From: Desulfobacteraceae bacterium
Lineage (GTDB): Bacteria; Desulfobacterota; Desulfobacteria; Desulfobacterales; ETH-SRB1
Length of the DNA: 33,963 bases
Assembly: GCA_014237365.1 (NCBI GenBank)
Contig: JABZFQ010000106.1
Span: 1 to 33,963 of the forward strand
Direction of reading: 5' to 3'
The notes under the pieces are model-generated. The model saw nothing but the letters and a program-made list of their open reading frames with translations, did not search any database and was not told the DNA's origin. This document shows, piece after piece, positions 19,537 to 32,332 of the stretch (position 1 is the stretch's first letter; every line of letters begins with the position of its first letter). The translations under genes were made by a program, and so were the position numbers.

Positions 19537-21123
19537 CTATACCCGCCCTATCCCGATGTTAAAGCTCAATATATTTTTGCCCTCTACCATACGTTTTTGC
19601 GGTGTGCTTACTTCACCCACCATCGTCTTAAGATCAAAAATTACCACGTATCCCTCATTTGCGCGCTCGGTTAAAAGGTATTTGCTGCACAGTTGATCAA
19701 TCGCCTTTTCAATTGTCCTGTCAAGGCTTGAACGATTTATCTTGGTCTCGACAATGTATTTATGGCTATGGTAGATCAAAAGAATATCCATTCTCCCCAG
19801 TCCGCTTGGCGCCTCGTAACGAAGTTCGCCCTTTCCCCCCTCTACAAACTGATACAACCAGGCGGTGAGCAGAAACTGTCCTGTTTTTTCATAAGGCTTT
19901 TTGTTTGTATAAAATGCACTTACGCCTATCTGCATAATATATTCCTCAAAATCAGCAAGGATGGCTTCCATGTTCAGAAGTCCGTCAGGTCTAAAGTAGC
20001 CCCGAACAGATACATCCACAATTGCCCCGGATTCCCGAAAAAAGGTCTTGGTGAACCTTCTTTTATAGATAGAGTTGCTTACTCTGATATTTTTCCCTTC
20101 TGCCCCGATCAAACCATGTGTCAAAAGAATGGATTGCTCCTCATCGCCAGGGATGTATTCAACCCCATCAAAAACAATGTTTATAAAAGTCTCTTTGTAT
20201 TGTTTGGCCTTTTCCGTGATATTATCAAAATGGCTGTTTTCTTCATAAAGAAGAATTTCGACAGCTTTTTCCACATCTTCAGCAGTGATCAGTTCTGTGG
20301 TTTCCGGCTTTATGTCAATAGTCAGAATGGTCCCAAGACGGTTTACCAGCCAGGGTTGTCCGGATGTTTCATCAAATACTTTTTTTACAGCTTCTTTCGT
20401 AAATGGCTGGTTTGTTTCTTCTGAATATTGAGTATAAAGATCATGGACATTTTTCAGGGTAAATGGAGGGAGTTTGACCTGATCTGCGATGTTAAAAGGG
20501 GAGACACCGCCTAGAATCAGTTTGGTGATATTGCGTATGCCCACCAAGCCAACGGAGTAAAGGGCTTTGTCAGTGCGCTTTTTGTATTTCTGATACAGAT
20601 CTCTTAGGGTGGCAAGAAAATTCTCCAGTTCATTGATCGGTATTCCGTCAAACTCGTCTATGAAAATAACGATTTTCTTGAATTCTATTATTCTGTTCAA
20701 TTCTTCAAACAATTCACAAAACGAGATATGATCAGTTATATTATGGGAATCCAGATACGCCCTTATGATATCCAGCTTTGGACAATTCACGGCGCCCAGC
20801 CTGTTTGTCAGTTGGCTGTAGAAATCCTTTTGAATCAGTTTGTAGAATATTTGTTTGTCAAGGTTTTTATGCCTTTGGAAACTCAGCATGATCGCCACAT
20901 AGGCAGGATCTTTTTCGAGTTTGTAACAAAAGCCCTCAAAAAAAGTGGTCTTTCCGCTCTGCCTGGGAGCAAATATGGAAAAGTACCTTCCCAAGTCAAC
21001 CATGGTCTTAATATCCTGGTTATCCATATTGGTGACATTTTCCAGGAAAACATAATAGGAAGCCTTTGGATCAACCACTCCTGATTTTTCAAAGATTCGT
21101 TTCGGTTTCTTGTAATATATCAT
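19537..21123 (-). CDS. AAA-like ATPase with C-terminal PD-(D/E)XK-like nuclease domain, paralog 1
   Basis: FSIFAPRQSGKTTFFEGF Walker A; KIVIFIDEFDGIP Walker B; C-terminal GRMDILLIYHSHKYIVETKI (D..ExK). Confidence 0.82.
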   Translation of the reverse strand: MIYYKKPKRIFEKSGVVDPKASYYVFLENVTNMDNQDIKTMVDLGRYFSIFAPRQSGKTTFFEGFCYKLEKDPAYVAIMLSFQRHKNLDKQIFYKLIQKDFYSQLTNRLGAVNCPKLDIIRAYLDSHNITDHISFCELFEELNRIIEFKKIVIFIDEFDGIPINELENFLATLRDLYQKYKKRTDKALYSVGLVGIRNITKLILGGVSPFNIADQVKLPPFTLKNVHDLYTQYSEETNQPFTKEAVKKVFDETSGQPWLVNRLGTILTIDIKPETTELITAEDVEKAVEILLYEENSHFDNITEKAKQYKETFINIVFDGVEYIPGDEEQSILLTHGLIGAEGKNIRVSNSIYKRRFTKTFFRESGAIVDVSVRGYFRPDGLLNMEAILADFEEYIMQIGVSAFYTNKKPYEKTGQFLLTAWLYQFVEGGKGELRYEAPSGLGRMDILLIYHSHKYIVETKINRSSLDRTIEKAIDQLCSKYLLTERANEGYVVIFDLKTMVGEVSTPQKRMVEGKNILSFNIGIGRV

Positions 21124-21711: not shown

Positions 21712-23295
21712 CTATACCCGCCCTATCCCGATGTTAAAGCTCAATATATTTTTGCCCTCTACCATACGTTTTTGCGGTGTGCTAACTTCACCCACCATCG
21801 TCTTAAGATCAAAAATTACCACGTATCCCTCATTTGCGCGTTCGGTTAAAAGGTATTTGCTGCACAGTTGATCAATTGCTTTTTCAATTGTCCTGTCAAG
21901 GTTTGAACGATTTATCTTGGTCTCGATAATGTATTTATGGCCATGGTAGATTAAAAGAATATCCATTCTTCCAAGTCCGCTTGGCACCTCGTAACGAAGT
22001 TCGCCTTTCCCTCCCTCTACAAACTGATACAGCCAGGCACTGAGCAGAAACTGTCCTGTCTTCTCATAAGGCTTCTGGCTCTTATAAAAGGCATTTACAC
22101 CTATCTGCATAATATATTCTTCAAAATCAGAAAGGATGGCTTCCATGTTCAGAAGTCCGTCAGGTCTAAAGTAGCCTCGAACAGATACATCCACAATTGC
22201 CCCGGATTCCCGAAAAAAGGTCTTGGTGAACCTTTTTTTATAGATAGGATTGCTGACCCGAACTTTTTTCCCCTCTGCCTTGATCAAACCATGTGTCAAA
22301 AGAAGGGACTGCTCCTCTTCGCCAGGAATATATTCAACCCCATCAAAAACAATGTTTATAAAAGTCTCTTTGTATTGTTTTGCCTTTTCCGTGATATTAT
22401 CAAAATGGCTGTTTTCTTCGTACAAAAGAATTTCAACAGCTTTTTCCACATCTTCAGCAGTGATCGGATCTGTGGTTTCCGGTTTTATGTCAACCGTCAG
22501 AATAGTCCCAAGACGGTTTACCAGCCAGGGTTGCCCGGATGTTTCATTAAATACTTTTTTTACAGCTTCTTCCGTAAAGACCTGGTTTGTCTCTTCTGTG
22601 TATTGAGCATAAAGATCACGGACATTTTTCAGGGTAAATGGAGGAAGCTTGACCTGATCTGCGATGTTAAATGGAGATACACCACCTACAATCAGTTTGG
22701 TGATGTTGCGAATGCCAACCAGACCTATGGAGTAAAGGGCTTTGTCTGAACGTTTTTTATATTTCTGATACAGTTCCCTCAATGTGGTAAGAAAATTTTC
22801 CAGTTCATTGATCGGTATTCCGTCAAACTCATCTATGAAAATAACGATTTTTTTAAATTTTACCAGTTGATTTAGTTCTTCAAATAATTCGCGAAACCAG
22901 GTATGGTCGGAAATATTATGCGAATCCAGGTATGTCCTCACCGCATCAAGCCTTGGGCAATTCACATGCGTCAGCCTGCTTGCCAGTTGTTGGTAAAGAT
23001 CTTTTTGAATCAATTGGTAAAATCTTTGTGAATTGAGGTTTTTGTAATCCTGAAAGCTAAGAAGGATGGCCATGTAGGACGTATCCTTCTCCAGTCCATG
23101 ACAAAAGCTCTCAAAAAAAGTGGTCTTGCCGCTCTGCCTTGGGGCAAATATAGAAAAGTATCGTCCCAGGTCAACCATGGTTTTGATATCCTGGTTCTTG
23201 GTATTAACCACATTTTCCAACTCAATATGGTATGACATTTTCGGATCAACTGTCCCGGAGTCTTCAAACATCCGTTTTGGTTTTTTATAGCTCAT
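21712..23295 (-). CDS. AAA-like ATPase with C-terminal PD-(D/E)XK-like nuclease domain, paralog 2
   Basis: Near full-length similarity to the 19537-21123 product. Start set at MSYKKPKRMFED; the upstream extension in the ORF track has no counterpart in paralog 1. Confidence 0.82.
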   Translation of the reverse strand: MSYKKPKRMFEDSGTVDPKMSYHIELENVVNTKNQDIKTMVDLGRYFSIFAPRQSGKTTFFESFCHGLEKDTSYMAILLSFQDYKNLNSQRFYQLIQKDLYQQLASRLTHVNCPRLDAVRTYLDSHNISDHTWFRELFEELNQLVKFKKIVIFIDEFDGIPINELENFLTTLRELYQKYKKRSDKALYSIGLVGIRNITKLIVGGVSPFNIADQVKLPPFTLKNVRDLYAQYTEETNQVFTEEAVKKVFNETSGQPWLVNRLGTILTVDIKPETTDPITAEDVEKAVEILLYEENSHFDNITEKAKQYKETFINIVFDGVEYIPGEEEQSLLLTHGLIKAEGKKVRVSNPIYKKRFTKTFFRESGAIVDVSVRGYFRPDGLLNMEAILSDFEEYIMQIGVNAFYKSQKPYEKTGQFLLSAWLYQFVEGGKGELRYEVPSGLGRMDILLIYHGHKYIIETKINRSNLDRTIEKAIDQLCSKYLLTERANEGYVVIFDLKTMVGEVSTPQKRMVEGKNILSFNIGIGRV

Positions 23296-23525
23296 TACTA
23301 TTTTTCCTTTTGTAAGCGATAACCATTTTCCGTCGATTGCTGTAACAATTAATTCTTCTTGGCTATTTTGCTTCTTAAAGCCACAATTCCTTTCCTGCAA
23401 GCACACATAAACACACAGCGCCAGAACTCCATAGAGACATAAAACAATAACCAACACGATCTTCCATGGAAATGTGATAGCTCGACAGGATCAAGCCATT
23501 GGCAGTCAGATCAGTTCCGGTACTA

Positions 23526-23727: not shown

Positions 23728-24372
23728 TTATTGTTCAATCACTTCCCATTGACCGTAAGAACCGCACCCATCACAGATCTCCTTTTTTTCGTCAAATTCT
23801 TTGGCGCAAACCAGGCATCTGAATCTTTTTGTTTCTTCTTCAGGTTCAAATTTTTCTTCAGAACTTGTTGTTTTAACGGTTTTTTCAGATGCCCCGGTCC
23901 TGAAATTCAGTTTGATTAAAAAGGGTTCTTTGCCTAAAAAGAGAAGATTGGAATCATTTAAACTCTGTTTTGGATTGAGCTTGCAATCAATTTTGGAAAT
24001 TCCTGTATAAGTGCCGTTCTTAGAATTTAAGTCCGTTATTTTATACTGGTTGTCAATAAATTCAATTGAACAATGAATGCCGCTTATTTGCGGAATTTTT
24101 CCCAAAACCTCAGAGCCGAAACTCTCCCTGCCTAAGATTATCTTGTCGGTATGAGGAATATGAATTGTTTCGTTCGTCTTCTGGTAAATGAGAGTAAGCC
24201 CATCCAAACCGGAATCTTCTTGAGTTTCAGTTTGATTATTGTTTGTATCAGAAATGTTCTGAATATCTATCTCTTCAAGGGAAGAAAAACAATTAGGACA
24301 GGTTTCCGGTCTTTCCGCCAAGTCTATAAACGTAATTTCCTCGCCACAGTAGTTGCAATTAATTCTGTACAT
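23728..24372 (-). CDS. FHA-domain protein with N- and C-terminal zinc ribbons
   Basis: INCNYCGEEI..ETCPNC; FHA core KIILGRESFG..ISGIHCSIEF..ITDLNSKNGTY; C-terminal CLVCAKEF..CDGCGSYGQW. Confidence 0.88.
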   Translation of the reverse strand: MYRINCNYCGEEITFIDLAERPETCPNCFSSLEEIDIQNISDTNNNQTETQEDSGLDGLTLIYQKTNETIHIPHTDKIILGRESFGSEVLGKIPQISGIHCSIEFIDNQYKITDLNSKNGTYTGISKIDCKLNPKQSLNDSNLLFLGKEPFLIKLNFRTGASEKTVKTTSSEEKFEPEEETKRFRCLVCAKEFDEKKEICDGCGSYGQWEVIEQ

Positions 24373-24989
24373 TATACATACACCATTTCAATCCCGAGTT
24401 TATTAAAATGATATTTAATTTTGTTTAGATCATTCTTCCGGGGAATGCCGGACATGAATACCTGATTGTCTTTTGAAACATTTATAGACCAGCGTTTAGA
24501 TGTGAAAAAGCCCTTTTGCAAAAAGAATCGTCCGTTTACAAATTTATATAGATTTTGATTAATGGAACCCCGTGCATTCCGGTTGGAATGTTTCTCCTGC
24601 ATATAACGTCCATCTAACAAGTAATCCAGATAGGTCATAAACAACTGATCCGGAAACTTTTTTGTCAACTCTTCCAGTGTATAACCGCTAAACGAATAAA
24701 TATTTAAATCTGTTTTCTTTTTGATAAAGGCGCTAAAAACGATCAGGGCTTGATACTGGTCAAACGGTTCGCCGCCGGAAATGGTTATACCGTCAAAACA
24801 GTCTTGAACTACAGATATCTGCTTAACCAGATATTCTATGTCAATTTCTTTTCCGTTTTGACTTGTCCATAATGAAGGACTAACGCAGCCTTTGCATTGT
24901 AAAGAACAGCCCTGTACCCAGATCCCGATTCGGGTTCCAGGACCAAGATTGTAAACAGGGTATTGAATACGATTCAGCTTCCAATACAT
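24372..24989 (-). CDS. Radical SAM protein, minimal NrdG/activase-like 4Fe-4S family
   Basis: GIWVQGCSLQCKGCVSPSLW (CX3CX2C) and ITISGGEPFDQ (GGEP); ~205 aa. Confidence 0.85.
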   Translation of the reverse strand: MYWKLNRIQYPVYNLGPGTRIGIWVQGCSLQCKGCVSPSLWTSQNGKEIDIEYLVKQISVVQDCFDGITISGGEPFDQYQALIVFSAFIKKKTDLNIYSFSGYTLEELTKKFPDQLFMTYLDYLLDGRYMQEKHSNRNARGSINQNLYKFVNGRFFLQKGFFTSKRWSINVSKDNQVFMSGIPRKNDLNKIKYHFNKLGIEMVYV

Positions 24990-26878
24990 TCAAAAGATAC
25001 CATATTGTTATTTGACTCATCGACAAAAATTCTAAATTGCAAATCTTCGGTCTTGTTTTGCTCGAACATAAAGTTGGTAATGCCATTCTTTATATAAGTT
25101 TCAACACGGTTATTGATGCCACGTCCACCGTTTATCAGGTTGTCTGCAATATAATGTTTTCTAAACTGTTCAACAAAGGTATCATCAAACTCAAAATGAC
25201 AATTTTTCTGTTTTATCAGATTTGTTTTAATTATATTCAGATTCATCAATAAGATGGACTTATCAACATCAGGGCGTATAAAGTCAAAAACAACAAAATT
25301 ATCGCCAAACCTGTTCAAAATCTCAGGTCTGTTCAGTTTGGCATTAAAAAAATTCTCTATCTCCGCCATGATATTTTCAGACATTTCTTCATAAGAATTT
25401 TCAAATTCAACATTGTGAATTCTCCTTCCATGCTCATCTTCTTTAAACAGCCCCAGATTGCTTGTAAATATAATAAGTGATTCTGAAAAATATATGGTTT
25501 CTCCCTTGCCGTCTGTAAGTCGGCCGTCATCTAGTATCTGAAGAAATTTGTCGAATACTCTGGGATGGGCTTTTTCTATCTCGTCAAACAATACTATTGA
25601 AAAAGGCTTTGCTTTCATTTGTGAGGTGAGTTGCCCGCCTTCTTCATATCCCACATATCCCGGCGGAGAACCGATAAGTTTAACATCAGAATTGCTGTCA
25701 TTGTATTCACTCATATCAAAGCGAAGTATGGCATCCTCGTCGTTGAAAATTAATTCCGCCAATGATTTGGCAAGCTCGGTTTTTCCGACACCGGTGGGGC
25801 CTGCAAAGAATAATACGCCCTTTGGTTTGTTTTTCTTATGTTTTTTCTGGTCAATTGTATGCAATCCCAACTTTGCCCGGCGAATAACTTCCACAGATTT
25901 TCTGATTGCAAGGTTCTGGCCTAAAACACGCTTATTAAGTTCCGCTTCCGCGTTATCAATTTTTGATTTTTCTAAATCTTCCCAAAAATTTTCTTTTGTG
26001 CCGTATTTAAACAAATCTGCAATCTGCTGGATATGATTGACATGTATTTTTTCCTGCATGGATATCGTAACCAGATTCTCTAATTCCTGATTGGCAAATC
26101 CGTCTGTTATATCAGAAAAAACAGTTGATATCTTTTTCACATCTATTGGCATTTCTTTCTGATAAAAACGTTCGGATTGAACATGGAAAAATCGATTACG
26201 TTCATCCTTGTTCGGCTTTAGCACTTCAATTCCTTTGGTCAAAGGATTTTCTAACAAGATCCAGACTGGAATATCACTCAATTTATCACAGATAAAAATG
26301 AGAATATTCCTCATGCCATTTTTATCCGGAAGAATTCGCGCCTCCTGCGCGGATTTTAATAATTTCAGAAAATGCCGCCGTTCTTCCTCTGCCAGTAAGT
26401 TGGGATCAGAAGAGAATCTTGAAGTATAATTAATAATGCCGACAGATAATTTCTGATTGTTGGAAACAAGAGATCGAAACAGGCTTAAGGTATCACTAAG
26501 ATTTTTTTCAATTTTGTCAATCTGTTTGGAACCAAAATGCGATTTAACATTTGCATTATTTTCACCGAGAAATTCAATCAAATTGTGTTTGGAGATTTCA
26601 GTATCAATCGATTCTATATCAAAGCCGTCAATGACATCATAATAGGCGATGATTTCGTATCCTTCGTTTTTAAGATAAAGTTTTAACAAGTAGCGGATAT
26701 CATTGAATCTTGCCCATCTTAGATCGTTAATGCTTTCCGTTTCGTGATAGTTTACAGGAAAATAGTAACAATCATAAACATTTCCATAAAGGTAAAACTG
26801 TGATTTTAAGGTCTGAAACCGTTTAAACTCCTGCATCCATCTCGGAAATATTTTGGCTGTATCTAATGGCATTTGCAA
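24974..26878 (-). CDS. ClpB/ClpV-like AAA+ ATPase with divergent N-terminal half
   Basis: FFAGPTGVGKTELAKSLAELIF (Walker A), GSPPGYVGYEEGGQLTSQMKAKPFSIVLFDEIEKAHPRVFDKFLQILDDGRLTDGKG (pore loop and Walker B), ESLIIFTSNLG (sensor 1). Confidence 0.9.
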   Translation of the reverse strand: MQMPLDTAKIFPRWMQEFKRFQTLKSQFYLYGNVYDCYYFPVNYHETESINDLRWARFNDIRYLLKLYLKNEGYEIIAYYDVIDGFDIESIDTEISKHNLIEFLGENNANVKSHFGSKQIDKIEKNLSDTLSLFRSLVSNNQKLSVGIINYTSRFSSDPNLLAEEERRHFLKLLKSAQEARILPDKNGMRNILIFICDKLSDIPVWILLENPLTKGIEVLKPNKDERNRFFHVQSERFYQKEMPIDVKKISTVFSDITDGFANQELENLVTISMQEKIHVNHIQQIADLFKYGTKENFWEDLEKSKIDNAEAELNKRVLGQNLAIRKSVEVIRRAKLGLHTIDQKKHKKNKPKGVLFFAGPTGVGKTELAKSLAELIFNDEDAILRFDMSEYNDSNSDVKLIGSPPGYVGYEEGGQLTSQMKAKPFSIVLFDEIEKAHPRVFDKFLQILDDGRLTDGKGETIYFSESLIIFTSNLGLFKEDEHGRRIHNVEFENSYEEMSENIMAEIENFFNAKLNRPEILNRFGDNFVVFDFIRPDVDKSILLMNLNIIKTNLIKQKNCHFEFDDTFVEQFRKHYIADNLINGGRGINNRVETYIKNGITNFMFEQNKTEDLQFRIFVDESNNNMVSFECIGS

Positions 26879-26883
26879 TATCC

Positions 26884-28434
26884 TTATTTTTTAAGATATT
26901 TTTTCTTTTCGATCTTCGTTTTTTCCTCTTTTCTTTCCCCTTTTTGGATAATTGAGTGATATTTTTGCGGTATTTGAATCAGCGCTTTTTCGGAAATCGG
27001 CATTTCTCTACTAAGATTGATTGCCAACCCCATTGAAGACAGCTCCTCTAATAGGGCTTTGAATTCATTGCAAGTCGTTTCCATCTCATCAAGTCTCTTT
27101 TCTTTCTGATCAATGCTGAGTTCTCTTTTGTTTTCCGCAATCACAAAATTATACAAGAATGATCCGTCCTTGTTGAATCTCAAATTCAAAAAATTTGACT
27201 GGTTCGGAATGTCAATCAAAAAATCGGATTCTTTCTCAAAATCAATTACTTGCATATCATGCAACACATTATAATTCAGTCTTTCCAAGCCTTGAACCAA
27301 TTGTGTCTTCACAAATTGCCGCTCATTTTCCTTGATAAAATCTTCTTGAATAATCTGCTCATTTTTCTTTCTCAAAACCGCAAACTTTGCCTGGAATTCC
27401 TCATATTCATACGGCTTTATTGTTTTTCTTTGGATCAAAGAAATGCCCAGCGCAAGCAGTTCTCCTTTTTCAGGCTGTAATTGGTCGTGAACCCGAATGT
27501 GGTTGATGCTTCCGATTGCTTTGTATACTTCAGATTTCCAATCATGGATTTTTTCCACTTTTTTGATATCATCAAATAATTCAATATAAAAATATTCATC
27601 TTTTAACGATTGACTCTGGATAAGTTTTTCTAATTGTGCCTGATATTCTTTACGACGCTGTGGATCGTTTATTTCGGATATGAACGCATTGATTGATTCT
27701 ATTCTTGTTTTGATATTTTTCCTTTTTCCTTCAAGATTGATTGATTTTGCAGCATTGGCACAAAAAGAGCCGATCATATTTTGTGGAGCAATATTTTTTG
27801 CAACCTTGTCGCTTGTTTTTATACGCACAGCATTAATGTCTGATTCGCACTTCTTAATATCTTTTTGCAGCTCTGATTTTTTCTCCGATTGAATACGATC
27901 AAAACCAAATTGAAATTCAGCCTTTCTAACTTTCACATTGATATTTTCAATTGATTCTTTGGCCTGGGAAAAAATTTCCGGATATTCATCCTGGATATAG
28001 GAACTTAGATAATGAAGAACCTGCAACTTGAAGGCTGTAAAATTATCTGTGGCATGCTGGTAATGTTTTTCATAGCCAACAAAGGCATGATAATCTTTCT
28101 GTTTGCCTGCAAATTCTACTTGTTCCTTCTGAAGAAGGTCTAAGAAAGATTTCAATTGATCACAAGTCTGTTTCAATTGACAATTATAGTTGTCGTACAG
28201 ATTCTGGTTTATTGTTCCAGTATGATTGATGCTAAAGGGAGCTAACAATTGATTGGCTCTGCTTTGGTTTGATTTTAGGAAGTCGCTGCAATCAAACTCA
28301 ATATTCCTGGCTTTGTCGCAAACACGTGCTTGTGCCAGACAATCCAGCAATGACTGAATTGTTGACTGTAACCGGAATATTTCCTTTAACTTTGGATTAA
28401 ATACATTTACCGAATAGCCCTTGGGACCGCTCAT
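26884..28434 (-). CDS. Coiled-coil protein of unknown function
   Basis: Long charged helical stretches; N-terminus MSGPKGYSVNVFNPKLKEIFRLQ; tightly spaced with the AAA+ gene. Confidence 0.75.
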   Translation of the reverse strand: MSGPKGYSVNVFNPKLKEIFRLQSTIQSLLDCLAQARVCDKARNIEFDCSDFLKSNQSRANQLLAPFSINHTGTINQNLYDNYNCQLKQTCDQLKSFLDLLQKEQVEFAGKQKDYHAFVGYEKHYQHATDNFTAFKLQVLHYLSSYIQDEYPEIFSQAKESIENINVKVRKAEFQFGFDRIQSEKKSELQKDIKKCESDINAVRIKTSDKVAKNIAPQNMIGSFCANAAKSINLEGKRKNIKTRIESINAFISEINDPQRRKEYQAQLEKLIQSQSLKDEYFYIELFDDIKKVEKIHDWKSEVYKAIGSINHIRVHDQLQPEKGELLALGISLIQRKTIKPYEYEEFQAKFAVLRKKNEQIIQEDFIKENERQFVKTQLVQGLERLNYNVLHDMQVIDFEKESDFLIDIPNQSNFLNLRFNKDGSFLYNFVIAENKRELSIDQKEKRLDEMETTCNEFKALLEELSSMGLAINLSREMPISEKALIQIPQKYHSIIQKGERKEEKTKIEKKKYLKK

Positions 28435-28530: not shown

Positions 28531-29622
28531 TTATCTGCTTCTTTTGACTTCCTGGACCAGTCTATCCCGAATATAACCCTCTTTACCTCTAATTTTGATA
28601 ACATACCAAACTTTATCTTTTGATATTATTTCAAACTGTTCTCCCTTTTTTACTACGCTAATAATTGAATACTTGGTAGAAGGCCCGGATCGAACATTGG
28701 CTGCGGTGATGTTGATGGTGGCGTAATTTTGCCTCTTATTAGTCCTAACTTTTTGTGCTGGATTTTGTTCGAGACCTGAATTTCCGGCTGAAGAAGCGCT
28801 TAGATTAATAAAAAAGGCAAGCGTAGCAATGAAGAAAATTGTTGAAAGCGCTATGGAAATACTTTTTAGATAAAATTTTTCCTCATTAAACTTGGCAAAA
28901 AATTCAACAATTGTAACTATAAGCAATATCATTCCTGGCATGAAATAGAAAATGGCAACAATTCCAACCAATACAGTTTCCATACCATCATCTGCTGTCC
29001 AATCACCAAACAGACTTATTATGCCAACAGGGATGAACAAGATTATTGAACCAGCAATAACAATAACAAATGTTACCACTGGACCTATTATCAAGAAAAT
29101 AGCAAGCAACCATATTAAAGCAGAACCTTTAATATCAACAAGATCACTCTTTTCCTCAGCATATCTACCAAAATAAAAAGTTGCGGCTGGAATAAAAGAG
29201 ATAAAAATAAGAAAGTTAATTCCATATGCAAAATTATCAGCCAATAGTTCAAGACTTGAAAAATTAATGTTAAAAGGCGTTATGTGCAGCAATATATTTT
29301 GTATCACATTGTTATCTTTTGAACCAAAAGCCATAAGTAGTAATATGAGCATTAGTACAGGCAAAAGAAAAGATACGGCTCCTATTGTGAATAGGAAACA
29401 TTTTTTAAAACCGCTTTTAACAAAACCTCTTGTATGCTCACTGAAATCAGATCGAACACTGTTCCTTGAATTTTCACCAATTGATTCCTCCTTAATGTTG
29501 TGCTTTGTCTCAATTTCTTTTATGAATTTGTTGTATATCTTTTTGGAAAAAGGGATGCTGCCTCTTGGTATAACAATGCTTTCTTCCTTCCCCAGTTGCG
29601 CAAGTGTATTGTTAACAGACAT
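28531..29622 (-). CDS. Multi-TM membrane protein with C-terminal bacterial SH3 domain
   Basis: Several hydrophobic segments; C-terminal INITAANVRSGPSTKYSIISVVKKGEQFEIISKDKVWYVIKIRGKEGYIRDRLV (SH3b). Confidence 0.82.
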   Translation of the reverse strand: MSVNNTLAQLGKEESIVIPRGSIPFSKKIYNKFIKEIETKHNIKEESIGENSRNSVRSDFSEHTRGFVKSGFKKCFLFTIGAVSFLLPVLMLILLLMAFGSKDNNVIQNILLHITPFNINFSSLELLADNFAYGINFLIFISFIPAATFYFGRYAEEKSDLVDIKGSALIWLLAIFLIIGPVVTFVIVIAGSIILFIPVGIISLFGDWTADDGMETVLVGIVAIFYFMPGMILLIVTIVEFFAKFNEEKFYLKSISIALSTIFFIATLAFFINLSASSAGNSGLEQNPAQKVRTNKRQNYATINITAANVRSGPSTKYSIISVVKKGEQFEIISKDKVWYVIKIRGKEGYIRDRLVQEVKRSR

Positions 29623-29623
29623 T

Positions 29624-31585
29624 TTAGAAAAAAAAATCTGTTAATGATTTCCCGAACTTATATTTAATTTGAATATCTTTGGGGGATTTTTTCAAATCAA
29701 ACAAAACATCAGATATTTGAATTTGGCTTTTGATATTTTTGTTGAAAATCGAATATAAAAATTCATCGTATGATAAATTTACATAATTGGAATAATTGTT
29801 TGATTTGAAAAATACCTCTTTTTCTAATTTAAGATACTTGTTCCCATACAAGTTCTTATTCCTGGCAAAAAATAAACCTATATCTTCAACAGTATTGTAT
29901 TCCTTGTTTTCCAGATCCTTAAATACCCTCTTTGCATCAAAGGCATAGAAAAGACTTATTAATTTACTGTCATTTAACCCATCATAAAAATCGCAAACAT
30001 AATCATCAAAATCCAGCCTGGGTGAAATGGATAATGCAGATGATATTTTTTCAATAATACTTTGAACAAGAACTTTTTGTTGTCCTTGTGTTACCGCTTC
30101 AATCTGTCTTAATGTAAATTCAAGCTGGAATATGTAGAATTTGATTTTTTCAAGCGGTGTTATTTTCCAGATATCATCCAGGTGGCTTATAAATCTTTCG
30201 GTTAATTCATCAATCTTTTCTTCCGTCCAGAAGTCATATGTTTTCATATCAATCTGGATGGGTCTTTCCGGCGTAAAGTATCTTAATACAGATTGCTTTA
30301 AGAAGCCTTCTCCATCCTGCTGATAGTTCCTGACCATCTTATCAAATATTTTCTTTCTTCCCAAATCCTGAATATCAGATACCCACCTCAGCAACAAACC
30401 ATAGCCTTCTTTATCCTCAATTAAATCCATATGCCAATCAATATTGTTTTCAATATAGTCAATCAACTCTTCTGTAGTCCTGATAGTTGCTTTGCCAAGC
30501 TTTATAGGCTGTATCGCTGCTTCCGCTTTACTCTTATATTTGATCTCAATATCTTCTCCACTTAGCCATCCTTTAACTTCATTTTCTCCCCAGCGGGACC
30601 CGATATCGTGCAGCGTTAGACCTGCGATCAGATCATTTATTTCAGCGTATTTTGGGTTAAAATCAATGATCGGTTTTTTGGCAAATTGTCTTTCGATTAT
30701 TTTATGCAGGCTGTCACGATTTACTAACTCAGGGTAAATCAGGTGCAAGAGGATCATGCCGAATGAATAGTAATCATTTTTTTCAGAAACAATGCCCCGC
30801 GGCTGTTCCGGAGCCAGATAGAAATTCGTTCCTTTTGTTGTGGAAGTATGCGTAAGCCGTTTTTCCGAAGTCTCTTCGAAAGTCTTTGCAGAGCCATAAT
30901 CTCCGATAATCAGGTCACTCTGCTCTTTGTCAAGATAGAGAATGTTCTCGGGTTTAAGGTCGCAATGGTATATTTTATGGTCATGAAGCGTTCTTATGCC
31001 CTTAAAAATTTCCTGAATAACATTTAATTTCAAAAATTCTATTGTATATTTCTTGCGTATATCGGTTACTGATATCAAATTTGAACCTTCAGCAAACTCA
31101 CTGATTTCATAGCAGAATTTGTTTCGGTACTTACTGGTTCCCGTCCCGAAATCATAAAGCCTGAGAATATCCGGATCGCTAATCGCTTTAATTCGCCTCA
31201 ATGCTTCAGGGTTTGGCTCATCTTTCGGATTCGTAAATTGATAATAGAGTTTTAGGGCAAACGGCTTGCCCTGACTGTTTTTTATCTTATAAATAATTGC
31301 TTCACCGGTCTGGTTTTCAGCGCAAATAATATCTGTAATTTCATATTCTTTGTCATTCAGTTCTATTACATCGCCAACCGCAAGACCGTGAGCAATTGTT
31401 TTATCAATCAATTCTGTTTCTTCAGATTCATAACCAACAGTTTTATCCGCTATTCGAACTTCTTCTTCATATGTTTGAGTTTTGGCTGTTTCATTTTCGT
31501 AACCCACTGTTTTGTTGGAAGCATCGTTTTTGTCGCTGGAATACGGCATGGTTTTCGAAATACTATTTGTTGTATGATCTGTCAT
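29624..31585 (-). CDS. Hanks-type Ser/Thr protein kinase
   Basis: FALKLYYQF; IYHCDLKPENILYL; LIIGDYGSAK; TTKGTNFYLAPEQPRG; DYYSFGMILLHLI. Confidence 0.92.
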   Translation of the reverse strand: MTDHTTNSISKTMPYSSDKNDASNKTVGYENETAKTQTYEEEVRIADKTVGYESEETELIDKTIAHGLAVGDVIELNDKEYEITDIICAENQTGEAIIYKIKNSQGKPFALKLYYQFTNPKDEPNPEALRRIKAISDPDILRLYDFGTGTSKYRNKFCYEISEFAEGSNLISVTDIRKKYTIEFLKLNVIQEIFKGIRTLHDHKIYHCDLKPENILYLDKEQSDLIIGDYGSAKTFEETSEKRLTHTSTTKGTNFYLAPEQPRGIVSEKNDYYSFGMILLHLIYPELVNRDSLHKIIERQFAKKPIIDFNPKYAEINDLIAGLTLHDIGSRWGENEVKGWLSGEDIEIKYKSKAEAAIQPIKLGKATIRTTEELIDYIENNIDWHMDLIEDKEGYGLLLRWVSDIQDLGRKKIFDKMVRNYQQDGEGFLKQSVLRYFTPERPIQIDMKTYDFWTEEKIDELTERFISHLDDIWKITPLEKIKFYIFQLEFTLRQIEAVTQGQQKVLVQSIIEKISSALSISPRLDFDDYVCDFYDGLNDSKLISLFYAFDAKRVFKDLENKEYNTVEDIGLFFARNKNLYGNKYLKLEKEVFFKSNNYSNYVNLSYDEFLYSIFNKNIKSQIQISDVLFDLKKSPKDIQIKYKFGKSLTDFFF

Positions 31586-31612: not shown

Positions 31613-32332
31613 CTAATCTATCACTTCAATCAAAACAGAGCCCAGATTGTCTTCCGCTCCCGTGTCCAAAGCTTTTTGTAAAATAAACTGTGCCTTATCT
31701 ATTAACGGCTTTGAATTGGACAATATTGCTTTAACCTGTTTAATGGTTAGTGATTTAAATAAACCATCGGAAGTCAATAATAAGATGTCTCCAATCAATA
31801 TGTTTCTTAGAACTGTATCAAAATCGAGACAAAGATTATCAGTCTTTCCGCCAAAATAACTGGTGATAGGGCTGTTGTCTTCAAAAGAATCGAGCACCTG
31901 GTCTTCAGTCAGCTTTATCATTGTATTGTTGCGGAAAACAAATGCCTGCGAATCACCGGCATTAACAACCTGAAACTTGTCTTTTTGAACTATTATTCCG
32001 ACAAGCGTGGTTCCGGTTCCATGATAATCCGGATTGGATCGTCCAAAAGTGATTAATTCGGTATTGATTGACTTCAGGATCTTTGACAAATTCTCTTTAA
32101 CGTATTTATCTTCTTTCTTTATTTTTTCCCTGAGTTGTTCAAGGATAAATTGCGCTGCAAATTCGCCGGAAGGACAGCCGCCGATTCCATCTGCAACAAA
32201 ACAAAAACAATCTTCAGCTTCCGATACACAATGAATCCCCTCATCATAAATAGAGTCTTGAATTAATACTCGATCCTGATTAATTTTTCTTTGAGTTCCT
32301 GCATGTAAAAATGCGGCTATATTATATTTCAA
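31613..32332 (-). CDS. PP2C-family Ser/Thr phosphatase
   Basis: HAGTQRKINQDRVLI; FCFVADGIGGCPSGEFAAQFI; VVNAGDSQAFVFRN; LLLTSDGLFKSL; AEDNLGSVLIEV. Confidence 0.92.
   Translation of the reverse strand: MKYNIAAFLHAGTQRKINQDRVLIQDSIYDEGIHCVSEAEDCFCFVADGIGGCPSGEFAAQFILEQLREKIKKEDKYVKENLSKILKSINTELITFGRSNPDYHGTGTTLVGIIVQKDKFQVVNAGDSQAFVFRNNTMIKLTEDQVLDSFEDNSPITSYFGGKTDNLCLDFDTVLRNILIGDILLLTSDGLFKSLTIKQVKAILSNSKPLIDKAQFILQKALDTGAEDNLGSVLIEVID

Follow-up and report, generated by a model that had tools for sequence, protein, structure and literature searches.

Docking of a forkhead-associated (FHA) domain protein on the phosphorylated tail of a protein kinase is already known from PknG-GarA and MST2-SLMAP. 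In Mycobacterium and Corynebacterium, autophosphorylated N-terminal threonines of PknG anchor GarA or OdhI through their FHA domain, and these two proteins contain a phosphorylatable Thr motif of their own (PMC8546545). In the Hippo pathway, the linker of the MST2 kinase carries seven pTM sites, three of which bind the FHA domain of SLMAP, and the phosphatase PP2A is recruited (PMC5663475). The four-repeat TQXF array of MDC1 has an aromatic +3 residue that RNF8 and Pellino recognize through their FHA domains, and RNF8 prefers Tyr or Phe at this position (PMC11884936, PMC4037201). Among single FHA proteins, Sulfolobus ArnA is reported to act with a kinase and a phosphatase (abstracts of PMC12852372 and PMC7472852), and in Bdellovibrio DgcB the FHA domain recognizes a phospho-Thr motif within the tail of the same protein (PMC6733907).

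We analyzed a stretch of 33,963 nucleotides from a Desulfobacteraceae bacterium (contig JABZFQ010000106.1, the window hereafter) that encodes a Ser/Thr kinase with an array of Thr motifs in its N-terminal tail together with an FHA protein. What is new here is a regular, locus-specific variant of such a motif, with a putative docking role. As in PknG-GarA/OdhI, a predicted disordered extension with several threonines precedes the kinase domain and a candidate FHA partner is at hand. The PknG extension, however, is described as poorly conserved, whereas the window-type motif is regular and locus-specific, and PknG carries TPR and (in mycobacteria) rubredoxin domains, whereas the window motif occurs in a cluster with genes for AAA+, PP2C and FHA/zinc-ribbon proteins. 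We rejected assignment of the window kinase to the PknG family proper: Pfam returned only kinase families and no PknG model was among the NCBIfam matches. The MST1/2-SLMAP-STRIPAK system resembles the proposed arrangement in that several TM motifs within a disordered stretch are autophosphorylated and then bound by an FHA protein that recruits a phosphatase (PMC5663475), but it is eukaryotic, its linker follows the kinase domain, and its consensus is E/D-G-pT-M-x-R/K. Its phosphatase is PP2A, brought in via SLMAP, whereas the window PP2C is a separate protein and a candidate eraser. The MDC1 array likewise consists of four Thr motifs with an aromatic +3 residue, but it is written on a scaffold by another kinase (ATM), whereas autophosphorylation is proposed for the window array. 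ArnA shares the order of a zinc-binding N-terminus followed by an FHA domain and differs in its partner, the vWA protein ArnB.

A kinase with four KTxxY motifs in its N-terminal tail

The minus strand of the window encodes, in this order, a PP2C-type phosphatase, the kinase, a membrane SH3 protein, an MSGPK-type protein, a ClpB-like AAA+ ATPase, an NrdG-like radical SAM protein and the FHA protein (Table 1). Several of these genes abut or overlap.

Table 1. Features of the window operon and of the kinase tail.
Feature	Position	Strand	Evidence
PP2C-type phosphatase, TTG start uncertain, 27 bp upstream of kinase	31613..32332	-	PP2C_2 3.8e-10
Ser/Thr protein kinase, 653 aa, ATG start	29624..31585	-	Pkinase 2.8e-25 at 98-300
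Motif 1 KTMPY, residues 11-15 (Thr 12)	31541..31555	-	
Motif 2 KTVGY, residues 25-29 (Thr 26)	31499..31513	-	
Motif 3 KTQTY, residues 35-39 (Thr 36)	31469..31483	-	
Motif 4 KTVGY, residues 48-52 (Thr 49)	31430..31444	-	
KTIAH, residues 62-66 (Thr 63), tail/kinase junction element	31388..31402	-	ortholog alignment
Membrane protein, C-terminal SH3_3	28531..29622	-	SH3_3 3.4e-12
MSGPKGYSV... protein, 516 aa, no Pfam family	26884..28434	-	also in other family A loci
ClpB-like AAA+ ATPase, own N-terminal region	24974..26878	-	AAA_2 1.8e-50
NrdG-like radical SAM protein	24372..24989	-	Fer4_12 1.8e-30
FHA protein	23728..24372	-	FHA 3.1e-8

The kinase is composed of a disordered N-terminal tail (residues 1-63), a Pkinase domain from about residue 98 and a specific C-terminal region. 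In the AF2 model, residues 1-63 have pLDDT values below 50 with a folded kinase behind them, and Foldseek returns the kinase fold; a predicted disordered tail with several threonines ahead of the kinase domain is the arrangement of the PknG-GarA type. The catalytic residues K112, HCD209LKPEN214 (H207/D209) and D229YG (D229/G231) are present and are kept across family members. With catalytic Lys, HxD and DxG in place, the protein is predicted to be an active Hanks-type Ser/Thr kinase.

The sequence-only reading had described five K-T-x-x-[Y/H] motifs in residues 11-66 of the tail (31555-31388, minus strand), with threonines at 12, 26, 36, 49 and 63. The ORF translation agrees with all five stretches and their positions, but the orthologs do not bear out five units of equal standing. 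At the site of KTIAH, alignment of the relatives gives RTQVH, KESIH, KTISH, KGTVH, KETIH, DAKDVH, SKLH and RTIAH. Because the orthologs keep the His and not the Thr, we place KTIAH at the edge of the kinase domain as a separate junction element, and the array is reduced to the four KTxxY members. Shuffling the kinase tail (70 residues) 200,000 times never produced four KTxxY motifs. A recent DNA duplication is not the source of the repeats: the motif units have 9-18 of 27 nt in common in pairwise comparisons and use the Thr codons ACC, ACA and ACT.

The array is conserved in orthologs of the window kinase

Among 144 related genomes there was no ortholog of the window kinase, just generic kinases at about 23-42% identity. 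A scan of genome contigs identified nine orthologous loci from several phyla with 40-55% identity to the window kinase, here called family A (bin labels Spirochaetes, Bacteroidetes, Marinifilum, Algoriphagus, Chlorobiota, Bacteroidales and Heimdallarchaeota). Further members were found on an Aristaeella plasmid (L033) and in two more genomes. The ortholog tails contain the motif sets KTQSY/KTQTY/KTIGY, RTIPY/KTIAY, KTKPY/ETITY/ETERY, KTQLY/KTGIY/KTEVY, KTKTY/KTSIY, KTKIY/KTGLY, ITGAY/KTSAY/KTSAY and MTQKY/MTQQY.

We pooled 11 KTxxY-class ortholog tails, excluding the window, and compared them with 5000 shuffles. Thr-x-x-Tyr was observed 27 times, whereas the shuffles averaged 3.1 and never exceeded 11, and [KR]T..[YH] 24 times as compared to 0.8 expected, the effective number being below 11 tails because some are close paralogs from bin G528. 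Every tail tyrosine (27/27) is located at Thr+3. The serine equivalents S..[YH] (Ser-x-x-Tyr, Ser-x-x-His) were absent from the same 11 tails, and the spacings T.Y, T...Y and TY were not enriched in them. While the tails vary in length and in their linkers, the Thr and the Tyr at +3 are retained.

Retention of the array as a short linear motif, the check named in the sequence-only reading, was thus observed in all KTxxY-class orthologs whose tail could be read. The further expectation that the motif is kept wherever the FHA gene is kept holds for the KTxxY-class orthologs and fails at two loci that do have an FHA gene: the Algoriphagus kinase (L038) has four PTTGIS repeats and no KTxxY, and the Aristaeella L033 kinases have TxxN repeats (RTVIN, TTIN, TTIN; KTIFN, ETVLN, ETIIN). 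Since both combine other Thr repeats with an FHA gene, the repeated-Thr design is wider than KTxxY. Thr-motif repetition at p<0.01 was detected in 11/18 kinases with an operon FHA and in 0/18 unrelated kinases, the latter being a small control set of mixed architecture. The tail units are near-identical tandem copies in some relatives (L038, L095 and L096).

The sporadic occurrence of the operon across phyla suggests transfer. Two loci in the archaeal bin labelled Heimdallarchaeota (L034 and L109) contain family A genes with a kinase 55-56% identical to that of the window, which probably reflects bacterial contamination or a recent transfer. The Chlorobiota bin G528 (L040, L042, L076) encodes several array kinases, in tandem or dispersed; some have WD40-like C-terminal repeats, and one adjoins a protein with three FGE-sulfatase stretches. 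Pseudokinase paralogs in L066 (7993-11433) and L067 (3326-6685) are devoid of the HxD Asp and of DFG, and have neither an array nor a linked FHA gene.

The FHA protein is the putative reader of the array

The window FHA protein contains N-terminal zinc-ribbon-like Cys pairs, an FHA domain (residues 60-157), a disordered linker and C-terminal Cys pairs. Residues G81, R82, S97, H100 and N119 are invariant among 16-17 FHA proteins. With an FHA fold and the Gly, Arg, Ser, His and Asn of the pThr pocket, the protein is predicted to be a phosphothreonine reader. The AF2 model (mean pLDDT 86.8) matches the folds of ArnA (the best match), MDC1, FhaA, GarA and OdhI as well as pThr-peptide complexes such as 3unn. 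A search of the PDB by sequence with the FHA profile also gave ArnA among the best matches and matched RNF8 (2pie). Before S97 the window FHA reads P-Q-I, where the hydrophobic +3 pocket of RNF8 has Ile/Met/Leu, a correspondence that is too ambiguous on its own. The sequences are also too few and too ambiguous for covariation between the +3 pocket and the motif.

The linkage of FHA gene and array kinase in one cluster, noted earlier for the window, recurs on the same contig in L037, L038, L097 and L033. In the MAGs G523 and G951, the FHA gene is found in family A cluster fragments on other contigs. In two draft bins, G525 and G529, the kinase of the latter being frameshifted, the array is present and no matching FHA gene was found at 1e-6. 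An FHA gene and a PP2C gene are recurrent members of both operon families that we identified.

A second operon family pairs other kinase motifs with FHA proteins

In Bacteroidota and Spirochaetota, kinases with a weaker match lie in a second operon family, family B, that consists of a kinase, a multi-AAA+ protein, an FHA/zinc-ribbon protein and a PP2C (L068, L069, L070, L072, L073, L095, L096, L098-L103 and L135-L137). The multi-AAA+ protein has 840-1400 aa, and that of L068 contains four stretches assigned by Pfam to AAA and AAA_lid_6; the PP2C is present in most loci and an extra zinc-ribbon protein in many. The family B kinase tails carry the motifs DKTVR or EKTIR, GTQRP, DKTLKP, DSTQRLD, KTESFELN and TGTVIID.

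Family B FHA proteins usually contain one copy of the motif of their own kinase, either at the very end or in the linker. These copies read DKTVRI, DATVRV, EKTVRI and EKTIRV, with less exact versions DSGTARI, SSTLRGS, STAKPT, GTAAFDLN, VTMAFNP and STVIVET. Kinase and FHA motifs from the same locus match better than mismatched pairs (permutation p=0.00005, or p=0.002 when the KTVR type is reduced to a single representative), p-values that serve as guides because the scoring and the windows were chosen post hoc and the KTVR-type FHA proteins are interrelated. The motif forms the C-terminal end of 7/8 KTVR-type FHA proteins, as compared to 0/61 other ORFs from six of these loci. As a forward test, we read the kinase tails of four genomes before their FHA proteins. 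The FHA C-termini were DKTIRL in G595, DRTVRL in G1511 and EKTVRL in G1507; no motif copy was found in G1462, and the prospective FHA protein without the motif is that of L137.

The copy of the kinase motif in the FHA proteins of most family B loci is a possible counterpart of the phosphorylatable Thr motif of GarA/OdhI (PMC8546545). In this self-motif, family B resembles GarA, OdhI and DgcB, in which the FHA domain binds to a Thr motif on the same polypeptide chain (PMC6733907); DgcB differs in being a GGDEF fusion with a single motif. In family A, neither the window FHA protein nor the others contain a clear TxxY copy of their kinase motif (kinase-FHA match p=0.06, n=5), and no convincing KTxxY copies were found in the other operon proteins.

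Proposed mechanism and alternatives

The best reading of the tail is that it probably acts as an autophosphorylated multivalent docking array for the operon FHA protein. The kinase would autophosphorylate the four KTxxY threonines of the disordered tail, acting on its own chain or on that of another kinase molecule, and the FHA/zinc-ribbon protein would bind the tail phosphothreonines, with the Tyr at +3 being read. The FHA protein would then be held at the kinase with its cargo, for which the AAA+ ATPase, the MSGPK protein and the radical SAM protein are candidates, and the operon PP2C would strip the tail phosphates and so reset the array. In family B, the kinase may dock the FHA protein and phosphorylate its motif copy, whereupon the FHA domain would bind itself or a neighbor, in a PknG-GarA-like manner; we propose this dock-then-release route because the FHA protein carries the copy in its tail or linker. 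We infer phosphorylation, binding, release and reset from the precedents of PknG-GarA and MST2-SLMAP. The sequence-only reading had also suggested an autophosphorylated tail that recruits FHA and is reset by PP2C, and it keeps its conserved array and FHA linkage while its five motifs do not stand as equal units.

The motif could instead be the preferred substrate of the kinase. The tail autophosphorylation sites would then regulate the kinase, as a pseudosubstrate or charge switch, the copy in family B FHA proteins would be a substrate site, and FHA docking on the tail would not be the main use. Units that are alike within one protein and a motif shared with the family B FHA fit a common writer as well as a common reader. 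Four to seven copies are more than a substrate site requires, however, and the family A array persists although the family A FHA is without a copy. Moreover, FHA is the only phosphothreonine reader recognized in the operon and is recurrent in both families, and the strictly kept Tyr lies at Thr+3, the position read by FHA domains (PMC4037201), so that we consider the substrate explanation unlikely. Use of the array by another phosphothreonine reader, such as an FHA protein from a different locus, or by several readers one after another is less probable still: FHA is present in the operon of all complete array loci of both families, with the exception of G951 (family A, cluster over two contigs), and the family B FHA shares the motif of its own kinase. 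This is despite array-bearing bins without a matching FHA on the same contig and the precedent of multi-site arrays such as MDC1 TQXF that serve more than one FHA protein (PMC11884936).

That the repeats arose by tandem duplication within a disordered tail and have no function is very improbable, and is strongly disfavored because the Thr-to-Tyr spacing is fixed. Low-complexity disordered tails do expand easily, and the units of L038, L095 and L096 are near-identical, but the window units have diverged at the nucleotide level and use different codons, the Thr and the Tyr at +3 are kept while linkers changed in orthologs at 40-56% identity across phyla, and such repeats occur in none of the 18 control kinases.

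Extending the docking array to both families, we tentatively suggest that at least two kinds of operon might use private phospho-addresses: each kinase would have an array of its own motif, which the partner FHA reads and often carries. Motif and reader would change together between loci, limiting cross-talk of parallel copies and passing the FHA protein from the kinase tail to self-assembly. The analysis yields a sequence-level prediction of kinase-FHA pairing in uncharacterized bacterial operons in which motif, reader and eraser occur together. If true, these operons would represent, in compact bacterial form, what the MST2-SLMAP and MDC1-RNF8 arrays are in eukaryotes and would offer natural motif-reader pairs for studying FHA choice at +2 and +3. 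The analysis also singles out two operon families of kinase, FHA/zinc-ribbon, PP2C and AAA+ genes, and we found no earlier description of these operons or arrays in the open-access literature.

Other genes of the window operon

The window PP2C matches NF033484 (1.7e-36), below the curated cut-off of that model. The AAA+ ATPase matches TIGR03346 (4.9e-76) in its C-terminal half only, and the radical SAM protein matches TIGR02491 (1.4e-30), again below the cut-off. NrdG-like radical SAM proteins recur in phospho-signaling operons, in the window as well as in L033 (13536-14144) and L111 (1970-2587), and neither a ribonucleotide reductase nor a glycyl radical enzyme could be recognized in the operon with the NrdG-like protein. 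The MSGPK... family comprises proteins of about 430-520 aa with no Pfam family where tested, in the window, L033 (11636-12928), L037 (12150-13685) and L097 (926-2476), and is linked to the kinase/AAA+/radical SAM/FHA operon. With the MSGPK protein as query, a search within the phylum returned one weak match in an unrelated-looking locus.

A defense-type use of the operon is possible. PADLOC gave partial matches over the kinase, PP2C and AAA domains, with no full-length match to anti-phage system proteins, and identity with a known anti-phage system was rejected since these matches are at the domain level only. In the survey of conflict systems by Kaur et al. 2020 (PMC7159879), the passages retrieved do not describe the window gene set. 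Directly downstream of the FHA gene lie two tandem paralogs (19537-21123 and 21712-23457, minus strand) with AAA_35/ATPase_2 and a C-terminal PD-(D/E)XK-like domain, and more copies of these AAA_35/PD-(D/E)XK-like paralogs are located on contig C313 of G000 (L118).
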